In this document: one piece after another, positions 7,800-29,060 of the stretch | Numbering within the stretch: the first letter of the stretch is position 1 | Layout of the letters: each line of letters starts with the position of its first letter | DNA from: Sulfurimonas sp. | Lineage (GTDB): Bacteria; Campylobacterota; Campylobacteria; Campylobacterales; Sulfurimonadaceae | DNA length: 64,000 nucleotides | Assembly: GCF_026196735.1 (NCBI RefSeq) | Contig: NZ_JAPHUF010000010.1 | Span: forward strand, 1-64,000 | Reading direction: 5' to 3' | Notes under the pieces: generated by a model | The model's database searches: none | Told to the model about the DNA's origin: nothing | What the model saw: the letters and a program-made list of their open reading frames with translations, nothing else | Translations under genes and position numbers: made by a program

Positions 7800-8741
7800 A
7801 TGACAACTGAACAATCACTGAAAGTTGGCTCCAATGAGATGGAACTTGTTGACTTTCGTATTTTAAAGCAAGAAGACGACAATGTCTATGAAGGCATATA
7901 TGGGATTAATGTATCAAAAGTTCGTGAGATCATTAAGTTGCCAAATTTAACTGATTTACCTAGTACGCCGGAGTTTATAGAGGGTATTTTTGATTTAAGA
8001 GATGTCGTTATACCTGTTGTAAACTTAGCGAAATGGATGGGAATAGTAGAACCAGAGGATGCAAAGAAAAACTCAAGAGTTATTATAACTGAGTTTAACA
8101 ATGTGCTTATCGGTTTTATAGTTCATGAAGCTAGAAGAATAAGAAGAATCAATTGGAGTGATATTGAACCGGCTTCTTTTATGAACTCAACAAGCTCAAT
8201 TGATGGAAGTAAGATAACAGGTGTTACCAAAATAGAAGGAGATAATGTCCTGCTTATCCTTGACCTTGAAAGTGTTGTGCAAGAATTGGGTCTTTATGAA
8301 CCTGACACACAGAGTCTTCCTAAAAAAATAGAAAATTTTACAGGGCTGGCTCTTGTTTTAGATGATAGTACAACAGCTAGAAGAATAGTTAAAGAAGCGC
8401 TTGTTAAGATGGGATTTGATGTTGTTGAAGCCATGGATGGCAAAGAGGGCTTGGAAAAATTAGATGCACTTTATGATGCATATGGCGATGAGATATCAGA
8501 TAATCTTAAAATAATTATTTCAGATGTAGAGATGCCGAGAATGGATGGTTTTCACTTTGCAGCCAATGTTAAAGAAGATGGGAGATTCAACAATATACCG
8601 ATTGTATTTAACTCTTCAATCAGTGATCATTTTAGTGAAGATAGAGGTATCAAGGCAGGTGGTGAAGCTTACTTGGTTAAGTTTCAAGCAAGCTCGTTTT
8701 ACGACGAAGTAGCACGAGTTGTGCGTGCACATATAAAGTAG
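7800..8741 (+). CDS. cheV: Chemotaxis coupling protein CheV (CheW domain plus receiver)
   Basis: A 313-residue adaptor that links chemoreceptors to the CheA kinase. Residues about 15-165 form a CheW-like domain ('GINVSKVREIIKLPNLT', 'VIPVVNLAKWM'). Residues about 180-313 form a receiver with the acidic pair in 'LVLDDSTTARR', the phosphoacceptor Asp in 'IISDVEMPRMDGF', a Ser in the switch position ('VFNSSIS') and the Lys in 'YLVKFQ', so phosphorylation looks possible. The SD AAAGGA precedes the ATG. It is the first gene of a cheV-cheA-cheW unit; adjacent cheV-cheA-cheW is the arrangement known from Helicobacter and Campylobacter. Confidence 0.96.
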   Translation: MTTEQSLKVGSNEMELVDFRILKQEDDNVYEGIYGINVSKVREIIKLPNLTDLPSTPEFIEGIFDLRDVVIPVVNLAKWMGIVEPEDAKKNSRVIITEFNNVLIGFIVHEARRIRRINWSDIEPASFMNSTSSIDGSKITGVTKIEGDNVLLILDLESVVQELGLYEPDTQSLPKKIENFTGLALVLDDSTTARRIVKEALVKMGFDVVEAMDGKEGLEKLDALYDAYGDEISDNLKIIISDVEMPRMDGFHFAANVKEDGRFNNIPIVFNSSISDHFSEDRGIKAGGEAYLVKFQASSFYDEVARVVRAHIK

Positions 8742-8753
8742 GGGTGTAAAAAT

Positions 8754-11129
8754 ATGGATGAATTTCAAGAGATACTACAGGATTTTTTAGTTGAGTCTTT
8801 TGAGCTAATTGAACAATTAGATCAAGATTTAGTAGAGTTAGAAAGCAGGCCGGAAGATTTAGAACTTTTAAATGGGATATTTCGCGTTGCGCACACTGTT
8901 AAAGGAGCTTCATCATTTTTAAACTTTGATGTTCTGACACACCTAACCCATCACATGGAAGATGTTTTAAACAAGGCAAGACATGGTGAGTTGTTAATTA
9001 CTCCTGACATAATGGATGTTATTCTAGAATCTATTGATTTGATGAAGCAACTTTTATTTACTATTCGTGATACTAGTGCTGATGCTGGAGTAGATGTTGC
9101 AGAGTGTGTTTCTAAATTAGACAAATGTGTAGGCGGTACTGGTGAAGTTGAGACTCCAGTTGCACAAGAAACTACTCCTGCTGAAGAAGTTGCTTCTGAG
9201 CCAGAGAGTTCAGAAGATGACCTTGATTATGAGAATATGGATGCTGATGATCTTGAAGCAGAAATAGAGAGACTTTTACAAGAGAGACAAAATGAAGATA
9301 AAGCAAAAAGAGAAGCTAAAATAGCAGCAGGAGAGAGTGTTCCATCACTCGATCCTACTCCTGAAACAGAAGAAGAAGCACCGCAAGAACCTACTCCTGA
9401 ACCAGTTGCGCCGACACCTGTTCCTGCTGCGCCAACACAACCAACGGAGGATGTAAAAGCTGCTGCACCTGCAAAAAAAGCACAAGTAGTTGAACAAACA
9501 ATCCGTGTTGATGTAAAAAGACTCGACCACTTAATGAATCTTATCGGTGAGCTAGTCCTTGCTAAAAACAGACTTATTAAAATAAATGAGGATGTTGAAG
9601 AGCGTTATGAGGGAGAAGAGTTCCTTGAAGAGTTAACTCAAGTTGTATCTATCGTCTCTCTTGTTACCACTGACTTGCAAATTGCAGTTATGAAGACAAG
9701 AATGCTCCCAATCGGTAAAGTATTTAACAAGTTTCCAAGAATGATTAGGGATTTAAACCGTGAACTTAACAAGAAGATAGAACTCGAACTATATGGGGAA
9801 GATACGGAACTTGACAAATCTATTGTTGAAGAAGTTGGAGACCCTTTAGTGCACATCATTAGAAATTCATGTGATCACGGTATTGAGCTTCCAGCGGTTC
9901 GTCAAGAAGAAGGTAAAAATGAAACGGGAACTATTAAGCTAAAAGCATATAATGAAGGCAATCAAATCGTTATTCAGATTGATGATGACGGTAAGGGTCT
10001 TGATCCTGAAATGTTAAAAACTAAGTGTATAGAAAAAGGCCTTATTACAGCAAAAGAAGCTGATAATATGAGTGACAAAGAAGCTTTTGCCCTGATTTTC
10101 AAACCTGGCTTTTCTACAGCTGCAGCAGTAACAAATGTTTCCGGCCGCGGTGTTGGCATGGATGTTGTAAAAACAAATATAGAAAAAGTAAACGGTATCA
10201 TTGATATAGACAGTGAATTTGGTGTTGGAACATCAATTAAATTGAAAATACCTTTAACTCTTGCGATTATTCAGGCTCTATTAGTGGGTGTTCAAGAAGA
10301 GCATTACGCTATACCGCTTGCATCGGTATTAGAGACGGTTCGAATATCAAAAGATGAGATTTACACTGTTGAAGGTCGTTCAGTAATGAGACTTCGCGAA
10401 GATGTTTTATCTTTGGTTCATATCGGAGATATCTTTGAAGTTGAGCGTATTTTAGACTCCAGTGAACATGCTTATGTAGTTGTTCTTGGTTTAGGTACTA
10501 GCAAACTTGGACTAATTGTAGACACCTTAGTGGGTCAAGAAGAGATAGTTATCAAATCTTTAGGTGATTATCTAAAAGGTATAGACGGTGTTGCCGGTGC
10601 TACTATCCGTGGTGATGGAGGTGTTACTCTGATTGTTGATGTACTAGCTCTTATGGATATAGCTAAACATGTTAAAGCAACAGCCATAATAGACAGTTCA
10701 TCTGACGCTGCATTGCTGACACAAGAAAAGATGAAAGCAAGTGACTATACTATAATGGTTGTTGATGATTCACAAACTGACAGAATGATTATGAGAAAAG
10801 CGTTAGAGCCACTTGGGGTTACCTTAGTTGAGGCTAGTGACGGGCAAGAAGCACTGAGTATACTAAAACAAGGCGACCATCACTTTGATGCGATGCTGAT
10901 AGATGTAGAGATGCCGAGGATGGATGGTTATTCTTTGGCTAAAGAGATAAAAAAATATAACCGTTATAAAAATTTACCTCTTATTGCCGTTACATCTAGA
11001 ACCGGTAAGTCTGATCGTATGCGTGGTGTTGAATCTGGAATGGTTGAGTATATTACTAAACCATATTCTTCTGACTACTTATCAAGCGTAGTTCAAAGAA
11101 ATGTTAACTTTAAATCGGAGTTTTTATAA
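8754..11129 (+). CDS. cheA: Chemotaxis histidine kinase CheA with C-terminal receiver
   Basis: A 791-residue cytoplasmic kinase. Domains in order: Hpt (about 1-115) with phosphorylated His47 in 'VAHTVKGASSF'; an acidic, Pro/Glu/Thr-rich linker (about 140-245); the dimerisation domain starting 'VEQTIRVDVKRLDHLMNLIG'; the ATPase with N box 'IIRNSCDHGIE' and glycine boxes 'DDDGKGLD' and 'GRGVGMDVV'; a CheW-like regulatory domain (about 510-650); and a receiver (about 665-791) with 'VVDDSQTD', Asp in 'LIDVEMPRMDG', Thr in 'AVTSRTG' and Lys in 'ITKPYSS'. The fused receiver is typical of Campylobacterota CheA and probably acts as a phosphate sink. It overlaps cheW by one base. Confidence 0.97.
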   Translation: MDEFQEILQDFLVESFELIEQLDQDLVELESRPEDLELLNGIFRVAHTVKGASSFLNFDVLTHLTHHMEDVLNKARHGELLITPDIMDVILESIDLMKQLLFTIRDTSADAGVDVAECVSKLDKCVGGTGEVETPVAQETTPAEEVASEPESSEDDLDYENMDADDLEAEIERLLQERQNEDKAKREAKIAAGESVPSLDPTPETEEEAPQEPTPEPVAPTPVPAAPTQPTEDVKAAAPAKKAQVVEQTIRVDVKRLDHLMNLIGELVLAKNRLIKINEDVEERYEGEEFLEELTQVVSIVSLVTTDLQIAVMKTRMLPIGKVFNKFPRMIRDLNRELNKKIELELYGEDTELDKSIVEEVGDPLVHIIRNSCDHGIELPAVRQEEGKNETGTIKLKAYNEGNQIVIQIDDDGKGLDPEMLKTKCIEKGLITAKEADNMSDKEAFALIFKPGFSTAAAVTNVSGRGVGMDVVKTNIEKVNGIIDIDSEFGVGTSIKLKIPLTLAIIQALLVGVQEEHYAIPLASVLETVRISKDEIYTVEGRSVMRLREDVLSLVHIGDIFEVERILDSSEHAYVVVLGLGTSKLGLIVDTLVGQEEIVIKSLGDYLKGIDGVAGATIRGDGGVTLIVDVLALMDIAKHVKATAIIDSSSDAALLTQEKMKASDYTIMVVDDSQTDRMIMRKALEPLGVTLVEASDGQEALSILKQGDHHFDAMLIDVEMPRMDGYSLAKEIKKYNRYKNLPLIAVTSRTGKSDRMRGVESGMVEYITKPYSSDYLSSVVQRNVNFKSEFL

Positions 11130-15054: not shown

Positions 15055-16334
15055 TTACTCAAAAAGAGTATAAAAAAAGAAGAGATATTTTAGCAAAGAA
15101 ATTATCTAAAAACTCTATAGGAATTATATTTAGTTCAACATATAAAACTCGCTCAAACGATACGGATTACCCATATAGACAAGATAGTAATTTTTACTAT
15201 CTTACAGGGTTTAAAGAGGATAATTCTGCATTGGTTTTTGTAAAAACAAAAAATGAGACAAAAACAGTTTTGTTTGTTCAAAAAAAAGATGCACAATTAG
15301 AGCTATGGACCGGCAAAAGAATGGGTAAAAAAAAGGCAAAAAAAAGATTTTTAGTTGATGAAGTATTTGTGAGCGATGACTTACAAAAGAGACTGGAAAA
15401 GTATGTTGTCGGTAAAAAAACCCTATATTGCGATTTAAGTTCTAAGGATAAAAGAGTAAAAAGATTTTTAAAACAATCATCAGCTATTAAAACTCAAAAA
15501 AACATAATTCATTTTATCCAAGAAATGAGACTTATAAAGTCACCTTCAGAGATAAACCTTATCAAAAAAGCAATATCTATAACAAAAGATGCTCATCACA
15601 GTGTTATGAAGAGTAAGAAGATAGGGAAAAAAGAGTATGAACTTCTCGCACAGATCGAGTATGAGTTTAAAAGCAAAGGTGCCTATAGTGATGCTTATAC
15701 ATCAATTGTAGCAGGCGGAAACAACGCAAATACTCTTCACTATATTAAAAACAATAAACCCTTAATAGACAAAGAGCTTATTTTAATAGATGCTGGATCT
15801 GAGTATAAACATTATGCCAGCGATATAACAAGAACAATTCCTGTAAATGGGAAGTTTACTTCTTCTCAAAAAAAGTTATATAAGCTTGTCTTAGATACAC
15901 AGCTTGAAATTATTAGTATGATAAAACCACATGTCAAAAGAAGTGACCTTCAGAAAAAAGCAGAAGAACTCCTGACAAAAGGTATGATTAAACTCGGCAT
16001 ACTAAAAGGTAATTATAAAAAACTGATAAAAAAACAAAAGCATAAGAAATATTATCCACACGGAATAGGACACTGGATGGGCTTAGATGTGCATGACCCA
16101 GCTCCATACATTAACTATGATGATAAAGAGATACCTCTAGATAAAGGTATGGTCTTAACGATTGAACCTGGATTATATATAGATAAAAATGACAAGTCCG
16201 TGCCTAAAAAATATCGCGGTATCGGCATTAGAATTGAAGATAATATATTGGTTACCAAAGACGGGTATGAAAATTTATCAAAAGATATAGTAAAGACTAT
16301 AAAAGAAATAGAAAGTATTTCTTTTAAGTCTTAA
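15051..16334 (+). CDS. pepP: Xaa-Pro aminopeptidase (M24B)
   Basis: Removes N-terminal residues that precede proline. The 427-residue protein has an N-terminal aminopeptidase-P domain ('YPYRQDSNFYYLTGF') and a C-terminal pita-bread domain. Its metal ligands are visible in 'IDAGSEYKHYASDITRT' (two Asp), 'PHGIGHWMGLDVHD' (His), 'LTIEPGLY' (Glu) and 'GIRIEDN' (Glu). It is Lys-rich, which is common in this low-GC genome. It is cytoplasmic, with no signal peptide. The ATG overlaps the stop of the lipoprotein gene. It converges with the end of the nap region, the two stops overlapping by four bases. Confidence 0.93.
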   Translation: MITQKEYKKRRDILAKKLSKNSIGIIFSSTYKTRSNDTDYPYRQDSNFYYLTGFKEDNSALVFVKTKNETKTVLFVQKKDAQLELWTGKRMGKKKAKKRFLVDEVFVSDDLQKRLEKYVVGKKTLYCDLSSKDKRVKRFLKQSSAIKTQKNIIHFIQEMRLIKSPSEINLIKKAISITKDAHHSVMKSKKIGKKEYELLAQIEYEFKSKGAYSDAYTSIVAGGNNANTLHYIKNNKPLIDKELILIDAGSEYKHYASDITRTIPVNGKFTSSQKKLYKLVLDTQLEIISMIKPHVKRSDLQKKAEELLTKGMIKLGILKGNYKKLIKKQKHKKYYPHGIGHWMGLDVHDPAPYINYDDKEIPLDKGMVLTIEPGLYIDKNDKSVPKKYRGIGIRIEDNILVTKDGYENLSKDIVKTIKEIESISFKS

Positions 16335-16765
16335 TCGTTATAGCTATAGCTCCAGCCTGTTAATTTATCTATCTTAGCTTCGATATAGTTGTCTGAATCA
16401 GCTAAAAAATCTATAACATGCATAATGCTGTGCGGGATACTTCTTTGATCTTCAGGTTTTACAAGGAGAAGAGGCATTGGTGTGTCTTGATTGCTTATGC
16501 CAAACCCAACCGGCATTAATTGACTCATAACTTCTATAGGGTTGTTTATTTGATTGTCATCTAAAAATTTATCAAACACGGCATCTTTTATATCTTTTGG
16601 AAGTTGTTCAGATGTATTTAAAAATATACTAAAGTGAATAGGCGTATCTTTAAAGTGATCAGGTGCAGGAGCAGCCATAATTATGTACTCTACATTTTTT
16701 AAGTGCTCGCTAATTTGAATAGGATCTAGATATTTATCAGTTTGTATTGCTTGTGCTACCGGCAA
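16331..16765 (-). CDS. Uncharacterised protein at the end of the nap operon
   Basis: A 144-residue soluble protein I do not recognise. It has no signal peptide, membrane segment or cysteine motif. It contains 'EYIIMAAPAPDHFKDTPIHF' and 'PIEVMSQLMPVGFGISNQDT'. The start is a TTG directly after the stop of the preceding gene, with AAGGAG six bases upstream, which decides the start. It is the last gene of the unbroken minus-strand nap run, so it is probably co-expressed with the nitrate reductase. A cytoplasmic role in maturation or regulation is possible but unsupported by any motif. Confidence 0.75.
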   Translation of the reverse strand: MPVAQAIQTDKYLDPIQISEHLKNVEYIIMAAPAPDHFKDTPIHFSIFLNTSEQLPKDIKDAVFDKFLDDNQINNPIEVMSQLMPVGFGISNQDTPMPLLLVKPEDQRSIPHSIMHVIDFLADSDNYIEAKIDKLTGWSYSYND

Positions 16766-17062
16766 TTAAGACTCCTTATTAACAAGTGGTTTACCTGTCT
16801 CTTCTTCTATTTCTTTTTGAAGTTTAGACATCTCAAATCTAATGCTATCCATTACAGGAAGAGGAACATTATCATCTTTCATCCATTTTACTTCATCGAT
16901 ATTTCCACCATAATCAGCACCAAATTCTTCTACTTTTTTTGAGTACTCTGATAAATCAGCGCAAATCTCAACTCTGTCATCAACAGTGTCTTTAAGTTCT
17001 ATATACCAATCTTCGTTACTGCCCGCAGCCATTTTTATAGTTGATTCAAATATTACTGACAT
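16766..17062 (-). CDS. Uncharacterised acidic protein downstream of napD
   Basis: A 98-residue acidic protein ('WYIELKDTVDDRVEICADL', 'EFGADYGGNIDEVKW') with no export signal. I do not recognise it. It starts at an ATG three bases after the napD stop and its own stop abuts the start of the next gene, so the two unknown genes form the distal part of the nap operon. The helical, charged C terminus ('MSKLQKEIEEETGKP') suggests a protein-interaction role; this is only a guess. Confidence 0.75.
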   Translation of the reverse strand: MSVIFESTIKMAAGSNEDWYIELKDTVDDRVEICADLSEYSKKVEEFGADYGGNIDEVKWMKDDNVPLPVMDSIRFEMSKLQKEIEEETGKPLVNKES

Positions 17063-17065
17063 AAT

Positions 17066-17455
17066 TTATCTCTGTGTTTTGTCAAATTTTTTAGTAAATG
17101 TAGATAGGTCATCTTTTTTCTTCAAGTCACCGTTGTACTGAATATCTGATAGTTTGACATCGTCATCATTTAGCATTTTTGGAACAGCATCTCCATTGGC
17201 AATAACTTCCATATGTGCATCTAACTCATCTTCAGAGTACGCCATTTGCATATCAGCAGTAATTACATGTGGTATAGCTTCTATGATTCTAAGTTTATCA
17301 AGTTCTTCAGATACACCTTCACCCTCAATAGTAATAATAACTCTGCCTTCTTTATCATGCATATGATAATCACATACTTCACAATCCTTAAGAGCTTGTA
17401 CCACTTCATCTATGTACTTTGGAACTGTTTTAACTACTATGCTTGAAATATTCAT
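17066..17455 (-). CDS. napD: Periplasmic nitrate reductase chaperone NapD
   Basis: NapD binds the twin-arginine signal of NapA and holds back its export until the cofactor is in place. The 129-residue protein has the NapD ferredoxin-like fold in its first 80 residues ('ISSIVVKTVPKYIDEVV', 'GRVIITIEGEGVSEELDKL', 'IPHVITADMQMAY'). The C-terminal tail of about 45 charged residues is longer than in the 87-residue E. coli protein. It lies after napL in the usual Campylobacterota order A-G-H-B-F-L-D. Confidence 0.9.
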   Translation of the reverse strand: MNISSIVVKTVPKYIDEVVQALKDCEVCDYHMHDKEGRVIITIEGEGVSEELDKLRIIEAIPHVITADMQMAYSEDELDAHMEVIANGDAVPKMLNDDDVKLSDIQYNGDLKKKDDLSTFTKKFDKTQR

Positions 17456-17476
17456 ATCGACTTCCTTTTGTTGTTT

Positions 17477-18433
17477 TTATTTTACACTATATAAATTAAT
17501 GATTTGGTTATTGCTAGAGACTAAAAACTCCTCATCATTAATAAAGACTATATTTGATAGCGTCATTTTATTGCCGCTGTATTCTCCTATTTTTGACTTA
17601 GTTGCTGTATTGAACAGAGTTACATTATTGTTTTCGTTGCTAGAGTATGCAGCAATTTTACCACTCGGAGATAGGCCAACACTATAGACTAAAAATGTAG
17701 ATTTTATATGATATGCCGAATTAAATTTAAGTGAATAAACTCCAACTCTTCTATCTTGTCCGGCAGTTACAACGATATCATTTTTATATGCAATTTGAAA
17801 TATGTTGTCTACATTTTGTCCTTTTAGTTTTTTGATATTCTTGGCGCTTAATGTGTCATAAATTTGCACAACACCACTTTCATCAGCAACTGCAATTTTA
17901 GTTTTATCTTCACTTAGAGCAAAGTCAGAAAATTTAGCACCTGAGACTTGATACCTATAGTTTTGTTTGGCTTTGTTTATGTTATAAGATATTATTTCAT
18001 TACTAATAAGTGCCAAAATAACTGTGTTTTTGTTTAAATATTTGGCCTTGATAATACTTAGATTTTTTATATAATCGATAATCAGGCTAGTTTTATTGTT
18101 TTTATGAATATGTAATCTGCTGAAACCTTTTTTTGATTGAGATAAAATCATAATAACACCATCTAGCTCATCAACCGAATAAACTTTTGAATCAACTTCT
18201 TCGCCCATAAAATCTTCTATTTTAGGAAGTTTGATTTTTTTGACGAGCTTTTTATTGTTAAAATCAAAAACATCAACTATGCCGGCATCAGTAGCGCTGT
18301 AAATTTTAGAATCTTTATAAACTAAATCAACGACAAAGCCGCTTGAGATAAAACTATCAATTGGCTGCTTGAAATCTTTTGCTTGAATATAAATTACTGA
18401 TAATAAAAGTAAAAAAATAAATTTACTCATCAT
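17477..18433 (-). CDS. napL: Periplasmic nitrate reductase accessory protein NapL
   Basis: A 318-residue exported protein with an N-terminal signal peptide ('KFIFLLLLSVIYIQA') and a repetitive beta-rich body resembling a WD40-like propeller ('KIAVADESGVVQIYDTLSA', 'NDIVVTAGQDRRVGVYS', 'GKIAAYSSNENNNVTLFN'). NapL is a Campylobacterota-specific nap component of poorly defined role that supports full nitrate reductase activity. The start at 18433 follows AAAGG with a four-base spacer; the start region overlaps the napF stop (a second ATG at 18430 is possible). An open frame extends further up inside napF but lacks signal-peptide logic. Confidence 0.85.
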   Translation of the reverse strand: MMSKFIFLLLLSVIYIQAKDFKQPIDSFISSGFVVDLVYKDSKIYSATDAGIVDVFDFNNKKLVKKIKLPKIEDFMGEEVDSKVYSVDELDGVIMILSQSKKGFSRLHIHKNNKTSLIIDYIKNLSIIKAKYLNKNTVILALISNEIISYNINKAKQNYRYQVSGAKFSDFALSEDKTKIAVADESGVVQIYDTLSAKNIKKLKGQNVDNIFQIAYKNDIVVTAGQDRRVGVYSLKFNSAYHIKSTFLVYSVGLSPSGKIAAYSSNENNNVTLFNTATKSKIGEYSGNKMTLSNIVFINDEEFLVSSNNQIINLYSVK

Positions 18434-18912
18434 AAAACCTTTATGTCTATTGCATCTGTAGGACATCTGCTTATACAAAATCCGCAAGCCGTACACTTAT
18501 CATTTATAACTGGCATAAACATTGCAGCAAAGTCTATAGCATTGTCTAAACATGGATCTTTACAAGAAAAACACATCGTATGGTTCCAACTCAAACATTT
18601 TTGCCTGTCAATTGTTATAGTTGCATTTAAAATCTTTTTATCTTTTAGATTCAATACCCCAAACTCACACGCAATTGCACACTTATCACAGTAAGTACAG
18701 CCATTAGTTGAAAAAACTATATAAGGAGTTTTGTCATCTGCTATTTTAATTATCTCTTCTTCACAAACAGTGGCGCATTTTGCATCACACTTGCTACACT
18801 CACTCTGAAAAAGAGATTCATCACCAAAATATGGTGGTCTTAAGACCTTCTCTTGCTTTTTGTCACCTTTAATAGATGAAGCAAGAGAGCTAAAAAGCTC
18901 TCTTCTTTGCAT
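18430..18912 (-). CDS. napF: Ferredoxin-type protein NapF
   Basis: A 160-residue cytoplasmic iron-sulfur protein linked to NapA maturation or cofactor insertion. Cysteine groups appear in order: 'CSKCDAKCATVC', 'CTYCDKCAIAC', a divergent 'CLSWNHTMCFSCKDPC' and 'CTACGFCISRC', consistent with up to four [4Fe-4S] clusters. It lacks a Tat signal; the start 'MQRRELFSSL' contains a twin arginine but no hydrophobic stretch. The ATG overlaps the napB stop (TAATG). Confidence 0.92.
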   Translation of the reverse strand: MQRRELFSSLASSIKGDKKQEKVLRPPYFGDESLFQSECSKCDAKCATVCEEEIIKIADDKTPYIVFSTNGCTYCDKCAIACEFGVLNLKDKKILNATITIDRQKCLSWNHTMCFSCKDPCLDNAIDFAAMFMPVINDKCTACGFCISRCPTDAIDIKVL

Positions 18913-19613
18913 TAGTGATCTAAACTGCCGGCTGCAGAATCTGCATTTGCAACATCTTCTGGAGTAACATAGTTTGGAGCACCTTTAACTGTATCTAAAG
19001 AATCAGTTAACCTTCTTCCTGCCCAACTTGAATTAGTTGCACCATCATCTGTAGTAAAAGTTGGTTCAAAAGTATTCTCAACTGCTAGGTTACCTTGAGA
19101 TTGTGGCGCATGACATAGTGTACAGTTAAATCTTGAACCCTGAAGCACATCATATTGTACGATAGAAACTTCATTTTTATAGTTATCAGCCGCTTTTTGA
19201 AATGTACCGTTTACAACTTTATGCTTAGGTCTAAAGTCTGTAAAGTGTGACACCGGAATCGGCGTTGCACCCATTCCACCAGCCATCTCAGGCATATGAC
19301 AACTAACACATCTGTTATCTTCTGTCTTGATAGGTAACATACCGGTAGTATCATGTGGAATCATCGGTGGAGCATCTTGAAATGCTCTTTTAATCTTTGC
19401 ACTACCCATAGGCTGCGATGTTCTGTACTCAGTTTTTGAGGCTGTAGTACTATCTTCCGTATAAAGGTCGGTTTTTCTTAGACCTAAAGACGCTTCACTT
19501 ACTGCTGTTACTACTTGTGCTTTTGGTGAAGTTTTAGCACTTTCACCAGTACAACCAACCATTAGTAGTGCCGCAGCGACTAAACCAATCGTTATTTTAC
19601 TCATTGTTTTCAT
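18912..19613 (-). CDS. napB: Periplasmic nitrate reductase dihaem cytochrome subunit NapB
   Basis: Transfers electrons to NapA through two c-type haems. The 233-residue protein shows both haem sites, 'CVSCH' and 'CTLCH', plus the His residues around 'HDTTGMLPI' and 'VSHFTDFRPKHK' expected as distal ligands. It is longer than the usual 150-175 residues because of an N-terminal spacer ('SAKTSPKAQVVTAVSEAS') and a C-terminal extension. The signal peptide ends 'ALLMVGC', a possible lipobox, so this NapB may be membrane-anchored. GGGAG precedes the ATG. Its stop overlaps the napF start. Confidence 0.92.
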   Translation of the reverse strand: MKTMSKITIGLVAAALLMVGCTGESAKTSPKAQVVTAVSEASLGLRKTDLYTEDSTTASKTEYRTSQPMGSAKIKRAFQDAPPMIPHDTTGMLPIKTEDNRCVSCHMPEMAGGMGATPIPVSHFTDFRPKHKVVNGTFQKAADNYKNEVSIVQYDVLQGSRFNCTLCHAPQSQGNLAVENTFEPTFTTDDGATNSSWAGRRLTDSLDTVKGAPNYVTPEDVANADSAAGSLDH

Positions 19614-19614
19614 T

Positions 19615-20442
19615 TTACTCTCCCGTTTTTTTGTTTTTTGCTAGTTTTCGTATTGAAAAACTAAGAGCATTATCATCACACACTTCGATACATCTAGCAC
19701 AGTTTGTACACTCACCCGAAAGTACAGGTATGCTCTGTTTATCTATCATGTGTAATACTTGTTGCTCAGGACAAACAGTTTTACATTTCATACATGCAGT
19801 ACAATTTTCTGCTGTATGTTGCACTCTTATAAGACTAGTCTTTCCAACCAGTGAATAAAACCCACCAAGCGGACATACATGTCCACACCATCCATTTTTT
19901 AAAACGAATAGGTCAAAAAGAAAAATAATAAGCATCGCTGCCCATCCAAAACCTAAACCAAATATAATACCTCTATGAAGCATAGATATTGGTGATATAA
20001 ATTCAAAGGCTGTGACACCCATCATAAACGATAATATTAGACTTAATGCTAAAACCCAGTATCGCATATTACGCGAAGCCGGTTGTCTTTTTGAGATAGC
20101 ATCAACACCAAATTTTCTTCTCAAAAGTGCTGCTGCATCCGTAACTATATTTACAGGGCAAACCCAACTACAAAAAGCGCGACCGCCGATAAGTAGATAA
20201 AATATAGTAACTATAAAGACTCCTATAAGTAAATCTAAACTCAAAACAGCACCTGCAAAAAGCATTTGCAGTGCAGCAAAAGGATCACTTAAAGGAACAA
20301 CATCTAAAAAAAGTGATGAACTAAGATTACCCATAAGGATAGTCCATCCCCAAGCATTCGCTCCAAAATACAAAATCAGTAAACCTATCTGGGTAAATCT
20401 TCTAAAAAATAAGTATCGGTAATTATTCCAAAGATTTCTCAT
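19615..20442 (-). CDS. napH: Quinol dehydrogenase membrane component NapH
   Basis: With NapG it oxidises menaquinol and feeds electrons to NapB/NapA, replacing NapC, which is absent here. The 275-residue protein has four membrane segments ('IGLLILYFGANAWGWTIL', 'LDLLIGVFIVTIFYLLIGG', 'YWVLALSLILSFMMGVTAF', 'AAMLIIFLFDLFVL'). It has the conserved cytoplasmic 'CSWVCPVN' and 'CGHVCPLGGFYS' motifs, and two C-terminal [4Fe-4S] sites, 'CTACMKCKTVC' and 'CTNCARCIEVC'. The ATG overlaps the napG stop, and napB follows two bases after its stop. Confidence 0.95.
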   Translation of the reverse strand: MRNLWNNYRYLFFRRFTQIGLLILYFGANAWGWTILMGNLSSSLFLDVVPLSDPFAALQMLFAGAVLSLDLLIGVFIVTIFYLLIGGRAFCSWVCPVNIVTDAAALLRRKFGVDAISKRQPASRNMRYWVLALSLILSFMMGVTAFEFISPISMLHRGIIFGLGFGWAAMLIIFLFDLFVLKNGWCGHVCPLGGFYSLVGKTSLIRVQHTAENCTACMKCKTVCPEQQVLHMIDKQSIPVLSGECTNCARCIEVCDDNALSFSIRKLAKNKKTGE

Positions 20443-21251
20443 TAGTATAAATCCCCTGCATCATTTAAAGAATCAATAGCAGTTTCTTTACTTATCTCAG
20501 TTGTCGTTTTAATTTGCGAAGCATTTTCTAAACGCTTTTCATCTTGTTTATCCCAACCTTTGATATAGTAATTACCTGCTTTACCCATTGCAACTTCTCT
20601 TGGAAGTACAAAGATAGCTGCTTTTTCCGTAACACAAGCCTTTTCACACAGTCCGCAACCGGTGCAGACATTAGAGTGAACAACCGGCTTTAAAAAAGCG
20701 TGTTTACCTGTTCTTTCATTTCTTTCATATTCAACTGTTATCGCTTCACCCAATAAAGGACAAGCTCTATAACAAGCATCACATTGAATTCCCCAAAACG
20801 CTATACAACTCTCATCATCTACTACAGCAAGACCCATATCTGCTATATTGATATCAAGTTCTCCATTTGTTGTAACACTAGATTCATCAAGTGCTCCTGT
20901 CGGACAAACAGGAACACATGGAATATCTGGACACATATAACAAGGTATATCTCTAGGTATAAAATATGGAGTCCCTAGAGGTTTGTTATCACCCGGTTTT
21001 GCAAGTAACAGTGTGTCGTATGGACAGGCTTCAACACAAAGCCCGCATTTTATACATGTTTTCAAAAAATCTTCTTCTTTAATAGCTCCCGGTGGGCGAA
21101 GAAGAAGTTGTGAAGCCGTCACTTCATCAACATATGCACTCCACACAAAACCACCTAGAGCTGCTATACCAGCACCTCTCGCCATTCTTAAAATAAATTT
21201 TCTTCTGTCACTTACTGTTTCGTTTTTCATTTTATTAGGTTTGCCTTGCAA
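20442..21251 (-). CDS. napG: Ferredoxin-type quinol dehydrogenase subunit NapG
   Basis: A periplasmic iron-sulfur partner of NapH. It carries a Tat signal ('SDRRKFILRMARGAG') and four [4Fe-4S] cysteine groups: 'CIKCGLCVEAC', 'CYMCPDIPCVPVC', 'CDACYRAC' and 'CTGCGLCEKAC'. Two starts are possible. TTG at 21251 gives 269 residues and has the strong SD TAAGGAGAG, with 11 bases between AGGAG and the TTG. ATG at 21230 gives 262 residues but is 32 bases from that site. I favour TTG. It follows napA by 34 bases and overlaps the napH start. Confidence 0.93.
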   Translation of the reverse strand: MQGKPNKMKNETVSDRRKFILRMARGAGIAALGGFVWSAYVDEVTASQLLLRPPGAIKEEDFLKTCIKCGLCVEACPYDTLLLAKPGDNKPLGTPYFIPRDIPCYMCPDIPCVPVCPTGALDESSVTTNGELDINIADMGLAVVDDESCIAFWGIQCDACYRACPLLGEAITVEYERNERTGKHAFLKPVVHSNVCTGCGLCEKACVTEKAAIFVLPREVAMGKAGNYYIKGWDKQDEKRLENASQIKTTTEISKETAIDSLNDAGDLY

Positions 21252-21285: not shown

Positions 21286-24108
21286 CTATGCTTTGTAAAC
21301 TTTTACAGCACATTTTTTAAAGTCTGTCTGTTTTGACATTGGACATGTCGCATCTAAACATACTTTGTTAATAAATACTTTTTCATCGAACCAAGGTACA
21401 AATACTAAACCTCTTGGAGGTCTGTTCCTACCACGAGTTTCAACTCTAGCTTTAACTTTACCACGACGAGATTCAACCCATGCAAGTCCACCTTGTTTAA
21501 GGTCTTTAGCTTCTGCGTCAGCCGGGTGCATGTAACATAGTGCTTCTGGAACAGCACGAAATAGTTCAGGTACACGCATAGTCATTGTTCCTGAGTGCCA
21601 GTGCTCTAAAACACGACCGGTAGACAACCAAATGTCATATTCCGCATCCGGCATTTCTGGAGGATCCATATACGGACGAGCAAATATTTTCGCTTTGTTA
21701 GCCAATGATTTTTTCTTAGAATCTTTATCTTTACCGGTTAATGTACCACTTTGTAGAGCTTTTGCAAGTGTTCCATAGAATGCATGTGAGTTACCGCTTT
21801 CTTTAGTAGCTTTAGCTGCATATGGATCATACTTAGCATTAAATCTCCATGCTGTCTCTTTACCGTCAACAACAGGCCATTTAAGACCACGAACTTTATG
21901 GTACACATCAAACGGTGCAAGGTCATGACCATGTCCACGAGTAAACGCAGCATACTCTTCCCAAAGATATTTTTGGATAAAGAAACCATAGCCGTCAAAC
22001 ACTTTACCGTCAGTTCCAACAACTTGTCTCGCATCTCCGGAAGCTTCACTATTATCGTATCCAGCTTGGATAGGATCGTTTGCATCAATTTTATAAGTTT
22101 TAGCAATTTTGTTTGCAAACAATACTTCAAATAGAGTAGTATCAGCATTGTAACCCATTGCATAAGCTTTTTTTAGTACACTTGGAAGTGCTTTTTTTCT
22201 TGGTCCGCTTGGTGCATATTCGCCCCAAACTTCAGAAATTTTAAAACGCTTTGAAAGCTCAACCCATTGCCAAGTATCACTCATTGAATCGCCTACAGGA
22301 AGAACTTGCTGTCTCCAGTGTTGTGTACGACGCTCAGCATTACCATAAGCTCCCCATTTTTCATACATCATAGCAGATGGTAAGATAAGGTCAGAAACTT
22401 TAGCAGATATACCTGGATATCCATCAGAAGTAACAATAAAGTTATCCATTTCACGAGCCGCTTTAATCCAGTGAGAAGCTGATGCAGAACATTGGTATGG
22501 ATTACAAACATTTACCCATGCAAACTTGATTAAGCCATCTTCGATTCCTCTGTGTAATGCCATAATGTGCTGTTTACCAACGCCATTAAGAGTTCCTTGA
22601 GGGATCATCCATTTCTTCTCAGCTATAGCTCTGTGCTTAGGATTTTTAACCATCATATCAGCTGGAAGTCTGTGTGTAAATGTACCAACTTCACGAGCTG
22701 TACCACAAGCAGAAGGTTGCCCGGTTAATGAGAATGCTCCATCACCAGGTTTAGCTTGTTTATTTAGTAAAAAATGAACATTGTATGCAAGTGTATTTGT
22801 CCAAGTACCACGAGTATGTTGATTCATACCCATTGTCCAAAAAGATACTACTTTTCTACCTTTTTCAATATACAAGTCAGCTAACTCTTGAAGTTTTTCT
22901 TTGAAGCTCTCAAGATTTTCATCCGGATCACCTTTTACTATAGTTGCTGTATAGTGTAAATCGTATGGCTCTAAAGATTTTTTGTAATCTTCAAATGAGA
23001 TTTCCCAGTGACCTAATGTACCAGGAGTGTGATTCATTGTATCACCAGCTTTGTATCCATAAGGCTCTAATGCAGGTCCCTCTTTTTTAGAAACAGTTGT
23101 TTTCATCTCTTTGTCGATAATTTCCATCTCTAAAGCAGTATATTTACCGTTTTTAATCGATTTTTCATTAGCTCTTCTCATACCGTAACCGATATTTACA
23201 GGACCGGCTGCAAAAATCATATGTTTTTTAACAAAATCCCAGTCAATAATGCCTTCAGCTTCGTCTCTCATTACGATTTCTCTTGCAATATAATTCCAAA
23301 GAGCAGTATCAGTATTTGGTGAGAAGATGATTTCAGTATCAGCCAAATCCGAAGTTCTGTGAGTATAAGTCTGAATACTTATAACTTTTACTCTCTCAGG
23401 ATTTGATAGTTTTCTGTCTGTTACACGAGACCAAAGGATTGGGTGCATTTCTGCCATATTTGAACCCCAAGATACAATTGTATCTGTCAGCTCGATATCA
23501 TCATAGCAACCAGAAGGCTCATCAACACCAAATGTTTGATAAAAACCAACAACCGCAGATGCCATACAGTGACGAGCATTTGGATCGATAGCGTTTGATC
23601 TAAATCCTGCTTTCATAACCTTTTGAGCTGCATAACCCTCTTGAACAGTGTACTGCCCAGAGGCGAATACACCAACTGCTTCAGGTCCACCAGATTTAAG
23701 TGCTTTTTTGATGTGAATTTCCATCTCATCATAAGCTCTTTCCCAAGATACTGGAACAAATTTACCTTTTTTGTCAAATTTGCCATCAGCACCAACTCTA
23801 AGTAGTGGTTGAGTTAGTCTGTCTGCACCGTACATAATCTTAGCATTAAAGTAACCTTTAATACAGTTAAGACCACGATTTACCGGAGCTGCAGGGTCTC
23901 CCTTAACAGCCACGATTTTACCGTTTTTCGTAGCCATCATAATACCACAACCTGTACCACAGAAACGACAAGCTGCCTTGTCCCATCTCCAGTCTCCTTC
24001 AGCTTGGCCTGCCGCTGCTTCTAGCTCTGTTGGTACACTCATACCAACTGCTGCTGCTGCAGATGCTGCCGCTGAACTTTTAAGAAATTCTCTTCTCGAA
24101 AGTGACAT
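21286..24108 (-). CDS. napA: Periplasmic nitrate reductase catalytic subunit NapA
   Basis: Reduces nitrate to nitrite in the periplasm with a bis-MGD molybdenum centre and one [4Fe-4S] cluster. The 940-residue protein starts with a Tat signal ('[15 protein letters not shown]'). The cluster ligands are Cys47, Cys50, Cys54 and Cys82 (CX2CX3C then C after 27 residues). The likely Mo ligand is the Cys in '[12 protein letters not shown]'. The C-terminal molybdopterin dinucleotide-binding domain is complete ('[18 protein letters not shown]'). The length is typical of Campylobacterota NapA, longer than the E. coli form. It is the first gene of the operon, preceded by an FNR-like box and an extended -10 element. 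Confidence 0.98.
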
Positions 24109-24193: not shown

Positions 24194-24243
24194 AGTAGAG
24201 ATAGTATCACTTTGATGAGTTTAAAATATATGACCCAGGTCAA
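24194..24243 (-). promoter_or_regulatory. napA promoter with FNR/DNR-type operator
   Basis: On the minus strand TTGACCTGGGTCAT (24243 to 24230) matches the FNR-family pattern TTGAY-N4-RTCAA at 9 of 10 defined positions. The extended -10 element TGATACTAT follows (24209 to 24201). If transcription starts about seven bases beyond it, near 24194, the operator centre lies about 42.5 bases upstream, the spacing of a class II activated promoter. The leader would be about 85 bases. The likely ligand is the Crp/Fnr-family protein encoded at 25338-26006. No other feature was seen in the 225 bases between napA and the next gene. Confidence 0.6.
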
Positions 24244-24333: not shown

Positions 24334-25341
24334 TTATGATTTAGGTTTTTGACAACTTTTTGTAAGTTTTTCTAATTCTTTTTTAAGATTTGAGAGTTTT
24401 CTTGTTGAATTAATCAATTCTTCTGTTGATTCTATAACAATATCTTCACTATTGTTTAAATGTTTTGAAGTTATTGATTTGTCCTGTAGTTCACCTAAGA
24501 TTGAATCAAATTCATCAGTTAACTCTTCTAGCTTGGAAGAGGCATATTCTGATTGCTTTAGTGCTTCATTTGAATGCTCCATAGCGGAGTTTATTTTTTC
24601 TACAAAGCAGTTTATAGTGTCTCCAACTTCGACAATTTCGCTTTCACTTTCTGCTTCAAGTTTTATTGGACTTAGTTTAGAACTATTTTTATTGCTTAAA
24701 AGAGTTTTTGAATATTGCATAAATGAATCGACATGTGATTCAATAGATCTTAGTTGCATCATCGAGTATAAAAATATTATACAAAGTATGCCTCCGGCTA
24801 AGTATTGAACAGTTTTAATAAAGTTTGTTTTGTCTTCGGAATTGTTTGTGTACATTGTAACTAGCTTATCTACATTATCCAGAAGTATTGTATTGTTTTT
24901 ATATATTGAAAGTACAATTTCATCTCCTTTATCCCTGTCTGCGTAGGATTGAGTAAGAAGTTTAAAGTTTTGTACATCTTCATAATAAGCATCCCAAAGT
25001 TTGCGTATTTCAAGTAGCTGTGTAGATATATTATAGTTTAATATTGGTACTATTCCTTTATCGTGGTCACCATGTTTTAAAATATTTAAACCTTCTATAA
25101 ACTCATCAGAAGCCGAATTTAATTCATAGAAATCTTGATTAGATGTGTAATGAATATAAAATATATTTTTGGCTATTTTTTGAGTTAACATTCTTTGCTT
25201 ACCTGCAATGTTTATTATAAGAGCATCTTTAATGTTTTGCTGATTTAAGTATATAGTAGTAGCCAATACACTTACAACCAAAAAGACTAAAAGAGCACCG
25301 ATAAGTTTAATTTTTGTACTGATTTTATTTATTTTTTTCAT
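24334..25341 (-). CDS. Membrane P-box (NarX/PilJ-type) sensor protein without output domain
   Basis: A 335-residue membrane protein. TM1 is about 12-31 ('LIGALLVFLVVSVLATTIYL'). The following periplasmic domain starts with 'IINIAGKQRMLTQKIAK' (about 42-58), the P-box-like motif of the PilJ/NarX type-IV sensor family, where it binds nitrate or nitrite in NarX. TM2 is about 183-200. The cytoplasmic part (about 205-335) is a charged coiled coil ('KLEELTDEFDSILGELQDK') with no HAMP-kinase, methyl-accepting or GGDEF module. Its ATG overlaps the stop of the Crp/Fnr gene by four bases, and both lie upstream of napA on the same strand. Inference: a nitrate sensor working through protein contact, perhaps with that regulator. 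Confidence 0.8.
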   Translation of the reverse strand: MKKINKISTKIKLIGALLVFLVVSVLATTIYLNQQNIKDALIINIAGKQRMLTQKIAKNIFYIHYTSNQDFYELNSASDEFIEGLNILKHGDHDKGIVPILNYNISTQLLEIRKLWDAYYEDVQNFKLLTQSYADRDKGDEIVLSIYKNNTILLDNVDKLVTMYTNNSEDKTNFIKTVQYLAGGILCIIFLYSMMQLRSIESHVDSFMQYSKTLLSNKNSSKLSPIKLEAESESEIVEVGDTINCFVEKINSAMEHSNEALKQSEYASSKLEELTDEFDSILGELQDKSITSKHLNNSEDIVIESTEELINSTRKLSNLKKELEKLTKSCQKPKS

Positions 25342-26006
25342 GATGCTGAACCTTTATATATATTATGAAGTAATTCTTTATCTAGTATGATGACTTCTGA
25401 GTTTTTTATTTCAATAATAGAACTTCTTTTTAATTTTTTTAAAACACGAGAGAGAGTCTCGGGCTGAATATGCAGCATAAATGATACTTCATGCCGTTTA
25501 AGTCTGTTAAACATATCCAAATCATCACTAAGCATAAAAGCAACTTTTGCTGTTGCGTCAAATACAAGCTCTCTGTTTACAACACAGTGTAGTTGCTGTG
25601 TTTTTAGAAGGATTTCATTTATAAACTCATTGTTGAGTATGTTCTTGGATAAAAACTGATTTTTCAGTTCTGTAAAGTCAACTTCTAAAACTATACTATC
25701 TTCCATAAACTCAGCATTTGAAAAACAGTATATAGAATGCTCATCCAATGTTGTAAGTTCAGATATTAAAGAGTTTTTATATATATGGTATAAAAATATT
25801 TCATTATCAAATTTATCAATTTTATACACTTTTAATAACCCTGAGACTAAAAAAAAGATTTTATTATGTATATCATTTTCATAATACAAAATAGAGTTTT
25901 TAGGGTAATTAATGATTTTTGACATGCTAGCAACAATATCTAATTTTTCATTTGAAAGTGATTTAAAAAAAGATAGCTGCCGTATGTAGTCTAATTTGTC
26001 ATTCAT
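25338..26006 (-). CDS. Crp/Fnr-family transcriptional regulator
   Basis: A 222-residue regulator with an N-terminal cyclic-nucleotide-binding-like beta barrel (about 10-125) and a C-terminal winged helix (about 150-215). The recognition helix region is 'HIQPETLSRVLKKLKRSS'; the Glu and Ser-Arg spacing is that of FNR-type proteins that read TTGA half-sites. The N terminus lacks the Cys cluster of FNR, so it should not itself carry an oxygen-labile cluster, resembling NssR/DNR-type proteins of nitrogen-oxide control. Its location next to napA, whose promoter has a TTGAC-N4-GTCAT box, makes nap control likely. The four-base overlap with the P-box sensor suggests joint function. Confidence 0.88.
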   Translation of the reverse strand: MNDKLDYIRQLSFFKSLSNEKLDIVASMSKIINYPKNSILYYENDIHNKIFFLVSGLLKVYKIDKFDNEIFLYHIYKNSLISELTTLDEHSIYCFSNAEFMEDSIVLEVDFTELKNQFLSKNILNNEFINEILLKTQQLHCVVNRELVFDATAKVAFMLSDDLDMFNRLKRHEVSFMLHIQPETLSRVLKKLKRSSIIEIKNSEVIILDKELLHNIYKGSAS

Positions 26007-26150: not shown

Positions 26151-27407
26151 TTGAAGTTCATAGAAGCCCTTAAACTTAGAAGCAAACTATTTTTTATTTT
26201 TATTATAATTACCATAGGACTAATATTTATTGGGATTATGGGTGCTATAAATCTTAAGTCTATGAAAAAAAATTTAGATTCTCTGTATTTTGGCTCTCTT
26301 GTGCCTGTAATAGAGCTTAATGACATCTTACAGACCTACCACGGCAGTTTAGCAAATACAATATATAAGGCAAGAAATTCAGAATTAAATATAAATGATG
26401 TAGAGTCACAGATAAATAGTTCTATTGCTAAAATAAATAAAAATTGGAATAATTATGAATCACATTTTAAAAGATATGATGAACTTCAATATATAGAGTA
26501 TGCTTCAGCTGAAATACTATCAACTAATAACTATTTTACAAAAATTTTAAAATCTGTAGCAGATGGCTATGATATAAAAGATTTATCAATTAATAATTTT
26601 GAAAGAAAAATTTCAAATATACATCAAACTATAAATAAATTAATCGCATATGAAATCAGTATTGCAAAACATGAGAGAAAGACCTTTTTGAAAATTTATG
26701 ATTCACTTCTTATTGAAGTTGGCTTCATACTTTTATTGGTCATTTTTTGTGTTATGTTTATATCGTATTATGTATTTAAAAGTATACAAGATGATCAAAC
26801 TGTATTGGAAGAAACAACTAAAAAATTAAGAATAGCAAATAAGAAACTAGAAAATGTTTCATACACTGATTCACTTACCGGCTTATACAATAGAAGATAT
26901 TTTAACCTTATATATGACAGAGAATTAAAACGCGCAAAGAGAATGAATTGCTACATAACTTTTATGATGTTAGATATTGATTACTTTAAACAGTATAATG
27001 ATGCATATGGACATATAGAAGGGGATTTTGCTCTTAAAAGTGTTGCAAAAGTTTTAAAAGATTCATTAAAGAGACCGGGGGATTATGTATTTAGACTTGG
27101 CGGCGAAGAGTTTGGCGTTCTTTTAACAGAAACAGGTGAGACAAATAGTGCAAGGTTAGCTCGCAATATTTGTGATGCAGTTCGAGAGCGTGAAATCAAA
27201 CATGAAAACTCTAAGGTTAATGAATTTGTAACTATTTCTATTGGTGTAGTCTGTTGCATTGCGGACAAAACACTTGATGAAGAGATGCTAATCACTCGTG
27301 CGGATGAGATGTTGTATAAAGCAAAAGACAGCGGAAGAGATCGTTATAACATAACAACAAATATTAGTGAAAAAACAACTAAAAAGGTAAATGAAGCAAT
27401 TGCTTAA
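26151..27407 (+). CDS. Diguanylate cyclase with periplasmic four-helix sensor
   Basis: Makes c-di-GMP from two GTP. The 418-residue protein has TM1 at about 13-34, a periplasmic helical domain of the 4HB_MCP type ('LVPVIELNDILQTYHGS'), TM2 at about 187-207, a short coiled coil, and a GGDEF domain with active site 'GGEEF' preceded by the inhibitory I-site 'RPGD' at the correct five-residue spacing. The start is TTG with AAGGGA a few bases upstream. It diverges from the Crp/Fnr gene. Its last 39 bases, including the stop, are duplicated at 30098-30136 on the far side of the IS256-ended insert. Confidence 0.92.
   Translation: MKFIEALKLRSKLFFIFIIITIGLIFIGIMGAINLKSMKKNLDSLYFGSLVPVIELNDILQTYHGSLANTIYKARNSELNINDVESQINSSIAKINKNWNNYESHFKRYDELQYIEYASAEILSTNNYFTKILKSVADGYDIKDLSINNFERKISNIHQTINKLIAYEISIAKHERKTFLKIYDSLLIEVGFILLLVIFCVMFISYYVFKSIQDDQTVLEETTKKLRIANKKLENVSYTDSLTGLYNRRYFNLIYDRELKRAKRMNCYITFMMLDIDYFKQYNDAYGHIEGDFALKSVAKVLKDSLKRPGDYVFRLGGEEFGVLLTETGETNSARLARNICDAVREREIKHENSKVNEFVTISIGVVCCIADKTLDEEMLITRADEMLYKAKDSGRDRYNITTNISEKTTKKVNEAIA
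27369..27407 (+). repeat. 39-bp direct repeat, left copy
   Basis: The last 39 bases of the diguanylate cyclase gene. It recurs at 30098-30136 with one difference (T to C at base 36). It directly abuts the left inverted repeat of the IS256-like element. Confidence 0.9.
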
Positions 27408-27904: not shown

Positions 27905-28237
27905 ATGAAACCGTATCTTATAATTATTTTAATTGCTTTTCATTTATTTAGTAGTAGTGCCTATGCAACAAAATCTTTTATAGATAAAGACCATTTTCAT
28001 AATGATTTTCATAAGTGTTCTATCCACGAACACCAACACCAACATTTTCATAACGGTTCTAATCATCAACATAAGCATAGTCATTCACAAGTCAATATAA
28101 ATTATGTTGATTTTTTTACAGATACTCACAATATAAATTTATATGACTTAACAAATTTAAGACAAACATATTTAGAAACTGTTTCTTTGGTTCCAAATCC
28201 AATCTTAGAGTCACTTTTTCGTCCTCCAATATCATAA
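27905..28237 (+). CDS. Histidine-rich exported protein
   Basis: A 110-residue protein with an N-terminal signal peptide ('LIIILIAFHLFSSSAYA') and a central His cluster ('HEHQHQHFHNGSNHQHKHSH') likely to bind a transition metal such as nickel, copper, cobalt or zinc. No enzyme motif is visible. I do not recognise a named family; small His-rich exported proteins often sit with HupE/UreJ or metal-efflux genes. It is the first intact gene of the IS256-bounded cassette; AAAAGG lies about 12 bases before the ATG. The metal role is inferred from composition and neighbours. Confidence 0.75.
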   Translation: MKPYLIIILIAFHLFSSSAYATKSFIDKDHFHNDFHKCSIHEHQHQHFHNGSNHQHKHSHSQVNINYVDFFTDTHNINLYDLTNLRQTYLETVSLVPNPILESLFRPPIS

Positions 28238-28283
28238 TCTTCAACTTCACTTATTTTATAAATTGTTAATTAAAAGGATAAAA

Positions 28284-29060
28284 ATGAAAATATTTTTTAT
28301 ATTTATCGCTATTTTTATGCTAAAAAGTATTGCTTATGCACATGGCATATCTGAGGCTGATAAATTAGCGATGATTGAGGGTGGAAACCTTCGTTATATT
28401 TGGTTGGGTGCCACCCATATGTTGTCAGGTTATGACCATTTACTTTTTTTATTTGGTGTTGTATTTTTTCTTACTTCTACTAAAGATATTGTAAAGTTTG
28501 TTACAGTTTTTACTATTGGGCATAGTATCACTTTGATATTTGCTACTTATATGAAAATAACTGCAAACTACTATTTAATAGATGCTGTTATAGCAATTAG
28601 TGTTATATATAAAGCATTTGATAATAATAAAGGATTTCCAAATTACTTAGGTGTTAAATCTCCAAATTTATTACTTATGGTTTTAATATTCGGACTAATT
28701 CATGGTTTTGGACTCTCAACAAGGCTACAGCAGTTACCATTAGCCGAGCAAAGCGGAGATATGTTACTAAATATCATATCTTTTAATTTAGGTGTTGAAT
28801 TTGGACAAATATTTGCACTTATATTTATGCTAATTGCACTAAATATTTGGAGAAAAAGAGCATCTTTTGAGAGACTAAGCCGTGTGGCTAATCATCTGTT
28901 GATGTTTTTAGGTTTTATGTTGTTGTTGATGCAATTGCATGGATATTTACACACTACATACGAGGAAGAGTTTGGATTTAATAAAGATGAACATGCTCAT
29001 ATACATATAGAGCAAGAAGCTAAAGTATTAAAAAACTCATCTCATGATAGTATCTATTAA
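28284..29060 (+). CDS. HupE/UreJ-type membrane protein
   Basis: A 258-residue membrane protein with a cleavable-looking N terminus ending before 'AHGISEADK' and about seven hydrophobic segments. It carries the HupE/UreJ_2 hallmarks 'GATHMLSGYDHLLFLFGV' and 'LIHGFGLSTRL' plus a late 'MQLHGYLH'; intramembrane His/Asp residues of this kind bind nickel or cobalt in HupE-like transporters. The C-terminal tail is His-rich ('DEHAHIHIEQ'). The ATG at 28284 follows AAAAGGA; an in-frame TTG at 28263 is less likely. Metal identity and direction of transport cannot be told from the sequence. Confidence 0.82.
   Translation: MKIFFIFIAIFMLKSIAYAHGISEADKLAMIEGGNLRYIWLGATHMLSGYDHLLFLFGVVFFLTSTKDIVKFVTVFTIGHSITLIFATYMKITANYYLIDAVIAISVIYKAFDNNKGFPNYLGVKSPNLLLMVLIFGLIHGFGLSTRLQQLPLAEQSGDMLLNIISFNLGVEFGQIFALIFMLIALNIWRKRASFERLSRVANHLLMFLGFMLLLMQLHGYLHTTYEEEFGFNKDEHAHIHIEQEAKVLKNSSHDSIY

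Follow-up and report, generated by a model that had tools for sequence, protein, structure and literature searches.

How might a putative membrane nitrate sensor that lacks a kinase pass its signal to the nap genes beside which it is encoded? The question is raised by a locus in the window, the whole 64,000-nucleotide stretch of Sulfurimonas sp. DNA that was analysed, where the gene for such a sensor overlaps one for a Crp/Fnr-family regulator. Campylobacterota lack orthologues of FNR and NarP (PMC6682613). Their Nss regulators, NssA, NssB and NssC in Wolinella succinogenes and NssR in Campylobacter jejuni, respond to nitrate, NO and N2O by controlling nap, nrf and nos (PMC6682613, PMC8139620, PMC11539149), the means by which Nss-type factors of this group sense the three compounds being stated as unknown (PMC8139620). 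We favour, with a probability of about 0.6, the reading that the two window proteins would form a dedicated unit working without phosphotransfer, in which the nitrate sensor acts by contact on its Crp/Fnr partner and so switches nap. The pair is a concrete, conserved and testable candidate for nitrate sensing in Campylobacterota, with residues to mutate.

The locus and its putative nitrate sensor

The genes of the locus are as follows.

25338..26006, minus strand: Crp/Fnr-family regulator gene, 222 aa
24334..25341, minus strand: membrane sensor gene, 335 aa, with a PilJ/NarX-type periplasmic domain and without a kinase or chemoreceptor tip
25338..25341, minus strand: 4-bp overlap, of the ATGA type, between the stop codon of the regulator gene and the start codon of the sensor gene
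21286..24108, minus strand: napA, encoding the periplasmic nitrate reductase and leading the presumed target operon
17066..21251, minus strand: napG, napH, napB, napF, napL and napD (napD assigned from its Pfam match, the rest from their position and the conserved gene order)

Along the minus strand the order is regulator, sensor, 225 bp, napA, napG, napH, napB, napF, napL and napD, and the identity of NapA is confirmed by TIGR01706 (1331 bits). The initial annotation had described a four-base overlap of the sensor and Crp/Fnr genes next to nap. Both parts of that description hold, the open reading frames running from 24334 to 25341 and from 25338 to 26006, and napA starting 225 bp past the sensor on the same strand. 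Divergent from the regulator lies a gene for a 4HB_MCP–GGDEF diguanylate cyclase (26151-27407, plus strand), which is found in the same place in most Sulfurimonas loci.

Within the sensor the following parts can be distinguished.

25246..25305, minus strand: transmembrane helix 1, aa ~13-32 (Kyte-Doolittle)
25180..25215, minus strand: N-box or P-box INIAGKQRMLTQ, aa 43-54, in which G47 and R50 form the nitrate-contacting G-x-x-R
24757..24813, minus strand: transmembrane helix 2, aa ~177-195 (Kyte-Doolittle)
24583..24747, minus strand: HAMP-like stretch, aa ~199-253, from profile alignment to a chemoreceptor
24349..24450, minus strand: C-terminal helix SEDIVIESTEELINSTRKLSNLKKELEKLTKSCQ, aa 298-331, the proposed output surface

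The NarX/PilJ-type P-box, the two membrane helices and the absence of a kinase, all noted initially, are confirmed: a PilJ N-terminal domain is recognised by Pfam (E=5.6e-17), aa 43-54 match exactly the McpN N-box pattern [IVL]-[ND]-x-A-G-x-Q-R-M-L-[ST]-Q, the helices lie at aa ~13-32 and ~177-195, and no kinase or MCP-signalling family reaches the Pfam cut-off in the sensor. The predicted structure, confident in the periplasmic part and of low confidence over the last 120 residues, best matches the nitrate-bound domain of McpN among PDB entries (6gcv, Z 17.6, 1.9 Å over 124 residues), followed at Z 14 by the NarQ fragments 5jef and 6xyn among other four-helix sensor domains. The protein thus resembles NarX and NarQ in its periplasmic four-helix sensor, its two transmembrane helices and its G-x-x-R P-box in helix 1 after the first of these. 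It differs from them in having no HisKA/HATPase histidine kinase domain and in being partnered by a Crp/Fnr protein rather than a NarL/NarP response regulator. With McpN it shares the PilJ domain, the exact N-box, the four-helix fold and a chemoreceptor-like cytoplasmic helix; unlike McpN it has no tip for contacting CheA and CheW, and its gene lies beside nap with that of a transcription factor. MCPsignal is matched weakly in 6 of 59 members of the sensor family, whilst the window sensor ends ahead of the conserved tip of the signalling domain of methyl-accepting chemotaxis proteins.

The N-box pattern of nitrate-binding PilJ domains has been published, and the McpN-type box is reported to bind nitrate specifically (PMC6381276). 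In NarQ, Arg50 holds the nitrate and Gly47 stacks on it, and a change of the arginine, even to lysine, leaves NarX and NarQ insensitive to ligand (PMC8199190); that the residue numbers 47 and 50 are the same in NarQ and in the window sensor is a coincidence. Of the 105 sensors belonging to the nap, double and g14 classes, all have G47 and 104 have R50; the nitrate box of nap-type sensors is, as judged from these alignments, intact and under strong constraint. All 12 sensors examined of a second type, encoded mostly upstream of nosZ and described below, have instead N (once H) at position 47 and K at position 50. The box is also lost in the sensor of locus L138, which was left out of the set used for these residue counts. 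Since G47 and R50 are kept in the one type and replaced in the other, nap-type sensors very likely bind nitrate and nos-type sensors very likely do not. The Arcobacteraceae sensors encoded ahead of nosZ or nor genes retain the box, and its loss is therefore a mark of one lineage rather than of all nos contexts.

A variant of the favoured reading would keep the unit as proposed and replace nitrate by nitrite, another oxyanion or the redox state of the quinone pool. NarX and NarQ do sense both nitrate and nitrite through one box (PMC8199190), and pairs also occur ahead of nor-nir and nosZ genes. We nevertheless consider such a ligand improbable in view of the exact match to a box reported for specific nitrate binding (PMC6381276) and of the location ahead of napA.

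Conservation and joint duplication of the pair

The initial annotation had made its proposal depend on conservation of the pair and on the sensor family not usually being accompanied by a separate histidine kinase. The pair is conserved across the order. In 77 of 80 named loci the sensor lies immediately downstream of the regulator, the 4-bp overlap being shared by 45 of these 77, and in a sample of 249 genomes from the order 82 regulators reach a score of 195 bits or more, and 80 of them directly adjoin a downstream sensor; the whole-genome sample and the set of named loci overlap, and the two counts are not independent. Crp/Fnr relatives scoring below 195 bits mostly have no adjoining sensor. 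The arrangement recurs far beyond chance. It is carried by at least 11 families, in some of which the sensors reach ~450 aa with two tandem PilJ domains. As for a separate kinase, a kinase-like open reading frame occurs in 9 of 140 neighbourhoods and is never a constant neighbour. The direct control of a one-component regulator by the sensor, suggested in the initial annotation, is supported in part.

Within the genus a close sensor is found in about 45 of 100 genomes, nearly always adjoining a close regulator where contig breaks do not intervene. A nap-type sensor is missing from 34 of the 80 napA-containing Sulfurimonas genomes. Of the three named loci that have no sensor immediately downstream of the regulator, one stops at a contig end. 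In L151, L186 and L187 the regulator lies beside napA or is unaccompanied, with no adjoining sensor, and a whole-genome profile search of the L186 and L187 genomes found no sensor, the L187 genome giving a weak PilJ match. These three loci show that a sensor can be missing or have been lost, and some lineages may have a regulator that acts by itself.

In most Sulfurimonas loci the pair lies directly upstream of napA. A paralogous pair, with ~30% identity in the sensor and ~48% in the regulator, is in most of its loci found immediately upstream of nosZ, and the genes that follow are confirmed to encode clade II NosZ, NosD and NapG/NapH-like proteins. Among 100 Sulfurimonas genomes the nos-type sensor is present in 52 of the 55 with a whole or partial nosZ and in none of the 45 without (Fisher p ~3e-25, a value which overstates independence because the genomes are related). 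The window's own genome yielded neither nosZ nor a nos-type pair. In several Arcobacteraceae the pair precedes genes for a cytochrome c, a COX1-like protein and cytochrome d1, that is norC, norB and nirS.

In both the sensor tree and the regulator tree the nos type forms one clade with support of 100, and the pairwise distances of sensors and regulators over 117 pairs show a mirror correlation of 0.92, a figure that is raised by operon co-inheritance alone. Taken together, the two results indicate that the pair was duplicated as a unit. Unrelated genes often share operons, and the two genes might on that ground be merely co-operonic with unrelated functions. Conservation across the order in at least 11 families, association with several target operons and joint duplication make this very improbable.

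Some further features of these loci were noted. A like pair lies directly upstream of the anaerobic ribonucleotide reductase gene nrdD in L077 (8842-10452), and nrdD is also found near pairs in L140, L144 and L148. At nos-type loci a small conserved exported protein of ~145 aa is encoded before the regulator (for example L061 8068-8517 and L058 9980-10408).

The regulator and its candidate operator

The regulator carries cNMP_binding and HTH_Crp_2 domains above the cut-offs, and its fold is like that of FNR and CRP (Z up to 19). Its nearest relatives in the named contigs, from Sulfurimonas metagenome-assembled genomes, are 84-85% identical. It is neither FNR nor CRP, scoring 23.7 bits against a cut-off of 228 for the FNR equivalog and 29.3 bits against 266 for the CRP equivalog of NCBIfam, and it has only two cysteines, C94 and C141, where FNR has four for its [4Fe-4S] cluster. 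Nearly all regulators of the single-PilJ nitrate type retain both cysteines, and every nos-type regulator has another residue, mostly serine, at these positions; C94 and C141 are possibly a redox or metal site.

The recognition helix of the helix-turn-helix reads QPETLSR and has Pro in place of the Arg of CRP. Assignment of the operator TTGAC-N4-GTCAA fits this sequence, because a published correlation links Pro at this position, which distinguishes such proteins from CRP, with that operator (PMC1274295); both features are shared with DNR and HcpR. The window holds one candidate.

24230..24243, unstranded: candidate operator ATGACCCAGGTCAA, of the DNR/HcpR type TTGAC-N4-GTCAA, centred 128.5 bp before the napA ATG

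Counting sites that agree at 9 of 10 positions or better, the motif is found upstream of 54 of 59 napA genes (92%), typically ~122 bp ahead of the start, and of all 11 nosZ genes examined, as against ~1% of shuffled sequences. The whole genome contains seven such sites, of which 24230-24243 is the sole one outside a gene. A genome-wide regulon drawn from the pattern was rejected, seven sites being hardly more than the five obtained with a reversed control. Autoregulation was likewise dropped, the operator occurring in only 12% of regulator upstream regions, as was direct control of nor operons, where the sites after the sensor mostly score 7-8 of 10.

The regulator also has features of an Nss-type factor: Crp/Fnr domains, occurrence in the same taxonomic order and an FNR-like TTGA-N6-TCAA operator before nap. 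The link to NssA itself is made through PMC11539149 alone, in which the nap-linked regulator of N. labii shares 44.8% identity with NssA.

The common picture of Nss regulators is that they sense their signal themselves. On that model the Crp/Fnr protein would detect NO through haem, in the manner of DNR, or redox state through C94 and C141, and the membrane protein would merely modulate it or serve some other purpose. DNR is indeed the best sequence match of the regulator in the PDB, the two cysteines follow the nitrate type and are lost in the nos type, and L151, L186 and L187 have the regulator with no adjoining sensor. Near-obligate pairing, co-duplication and translational overlap would, however, be difficult to account for were the sensor not needed, and two cysteines do not make an FNR-type cluster; we regard self-sensing as rather unlikely. 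To our knowledge, the members of the DNR/HcpR group described so far are soluble sensors with no obligate membrane partner, whereas here a membrane partner is present.

A possible route from sensor to regulator

If the regulator is governed by its neighbour, the part of the sensor which faces the cytoplasm deserves attention. Across all sensor classes, in alignments of 117 non-identical sensor/regulator pairs, the most constrained columns are those of the ligand box and of the C-terminal helix, where E299 is present in 117 of 117 sensors, I303 and E307 in nearly all, and the subsequent leucines are conserved. A profile of this 42-residue helix matches only these sensors and two chemoreceptors, in which it lies ahead of the signalling tip. 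When the profile is built from the entire cytoplasmic region, chemoreceptors are the sole confident matches outside the sensors, and this region aligns with the chemoreceptor HAMP domain and adaptation helix, although the HAMP-like assignment stays below Pfam thresholds. Two chemoreceptors, L217 and L216, initially chosen because they matched, score 40.8 and 25.4 bits, where the highest of 400 block shuffles reaches 16.1; when all neighbourhood open reading frames were scanned, the non-sensor matches at E ~0.001 or better were also chemoreceptors. We read the sensor, from this resemblance, as a probable chemoreceptor cut off ahead of its kinase-controlling tip. The initial description of only a coiled coil inside the cell is thus right as to the helical rod and too narrow in its 'only', since a HAMP-like stretch and an adaptation-helix-like helix are discernible.

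In the favoured reading of contact between the two proteins, a dimeric periplasmic four-helix bundle would bind nitrate between its two first helices by way of G47 and R50, and the ligand-induced change would cross the membrane and the HAMP-like stretch into the cytoplasmic rod. The conserved C-terminal helix (SEDxxIESxEEL...) would then touch the co-encoded Crp/Fnr protein, so as to hold, release or activate its dimer, and this contact would set binding to TTGAC-N4-GTCAA at the napA promoter. As to polarity, our guess is that nitrate binding releases the regulator and nap is activated. In many Sulfurimonadaceae the co-duplicated unit, its sensor without the nitrate box, would serve the nos operon with another input.

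The sensor could instead signal elsewhere: to an orphan PilJ histidine kinase, to chemotaxis arrays, or to the divergent GGDEF protein, with c-di-GMP acting on the Crp/Fnr protein. The same genome does encode a PilJ kinase (L185, positions 8730-10115, C17) with the G-x-x-R box INTSGRQRMLSQ, but it lies away from nap, and the 19 kb read around it revealed no recognisable response regulator. Kinase-like neighbours of the pair are scarce generally. The cytoplasmic profile matches chemoreceptors, yet the sensor has no MCP signalling tip. The GGDEF gene, frequent as a neighbour in Sulfurimonas, is absent beside the pair in other families. Such an output has in our estimation a low probability, the kinase and the GGDEF gene being possible side routes rather than constant partners.

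Each component of the direct-contact unit is of a known kind, whilst the layout appears to be undescribed: in the literature searched, the main 2016 Wolinella paper lying outside its scope, no membrane sensor partner is mentioned for the Nss regulators and no account of a PilJ–Crp arrangement was found. Direct contact, if true, would place this layout between one- and two-component systems. It is an attractive if tentative thought, to which we give somewhat less than even odds, that these proteins represent a new signalling class of kinase-less, chemoreceptor-derived receptors directly contacting a Crp/Fnr partner, which duplication has split into a nitrate-sensing nap unit and a nos unit, the latter with an altered pocket and possibly the N2O sensor of clade II reducers. 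The nos-linked copy with R50K offers a candidate link between N2O and the control of clade II nosZ, which acts as a sink for a greenhouse gas.

Other genes are found around the nap operon. Two small proteins of 144 and 98 aa without a Pfam family are encoded after napD (16331-17062, minus strand) and are kept with the nap operon throughout the genus. A small NifL/Aer-like PAS protein, absent from the nap operon of the window, is encoded within or at the end of many others, by napD or napL (L071 1247-1771, L067 6901-7425, L086, L087 and others). On the far side of the GGDEF gene, at 27905-29060 on the plus strand, a histidine-rich small protein is followed by a HupE-like membrane protein, which suggests a metal-uptake pair.
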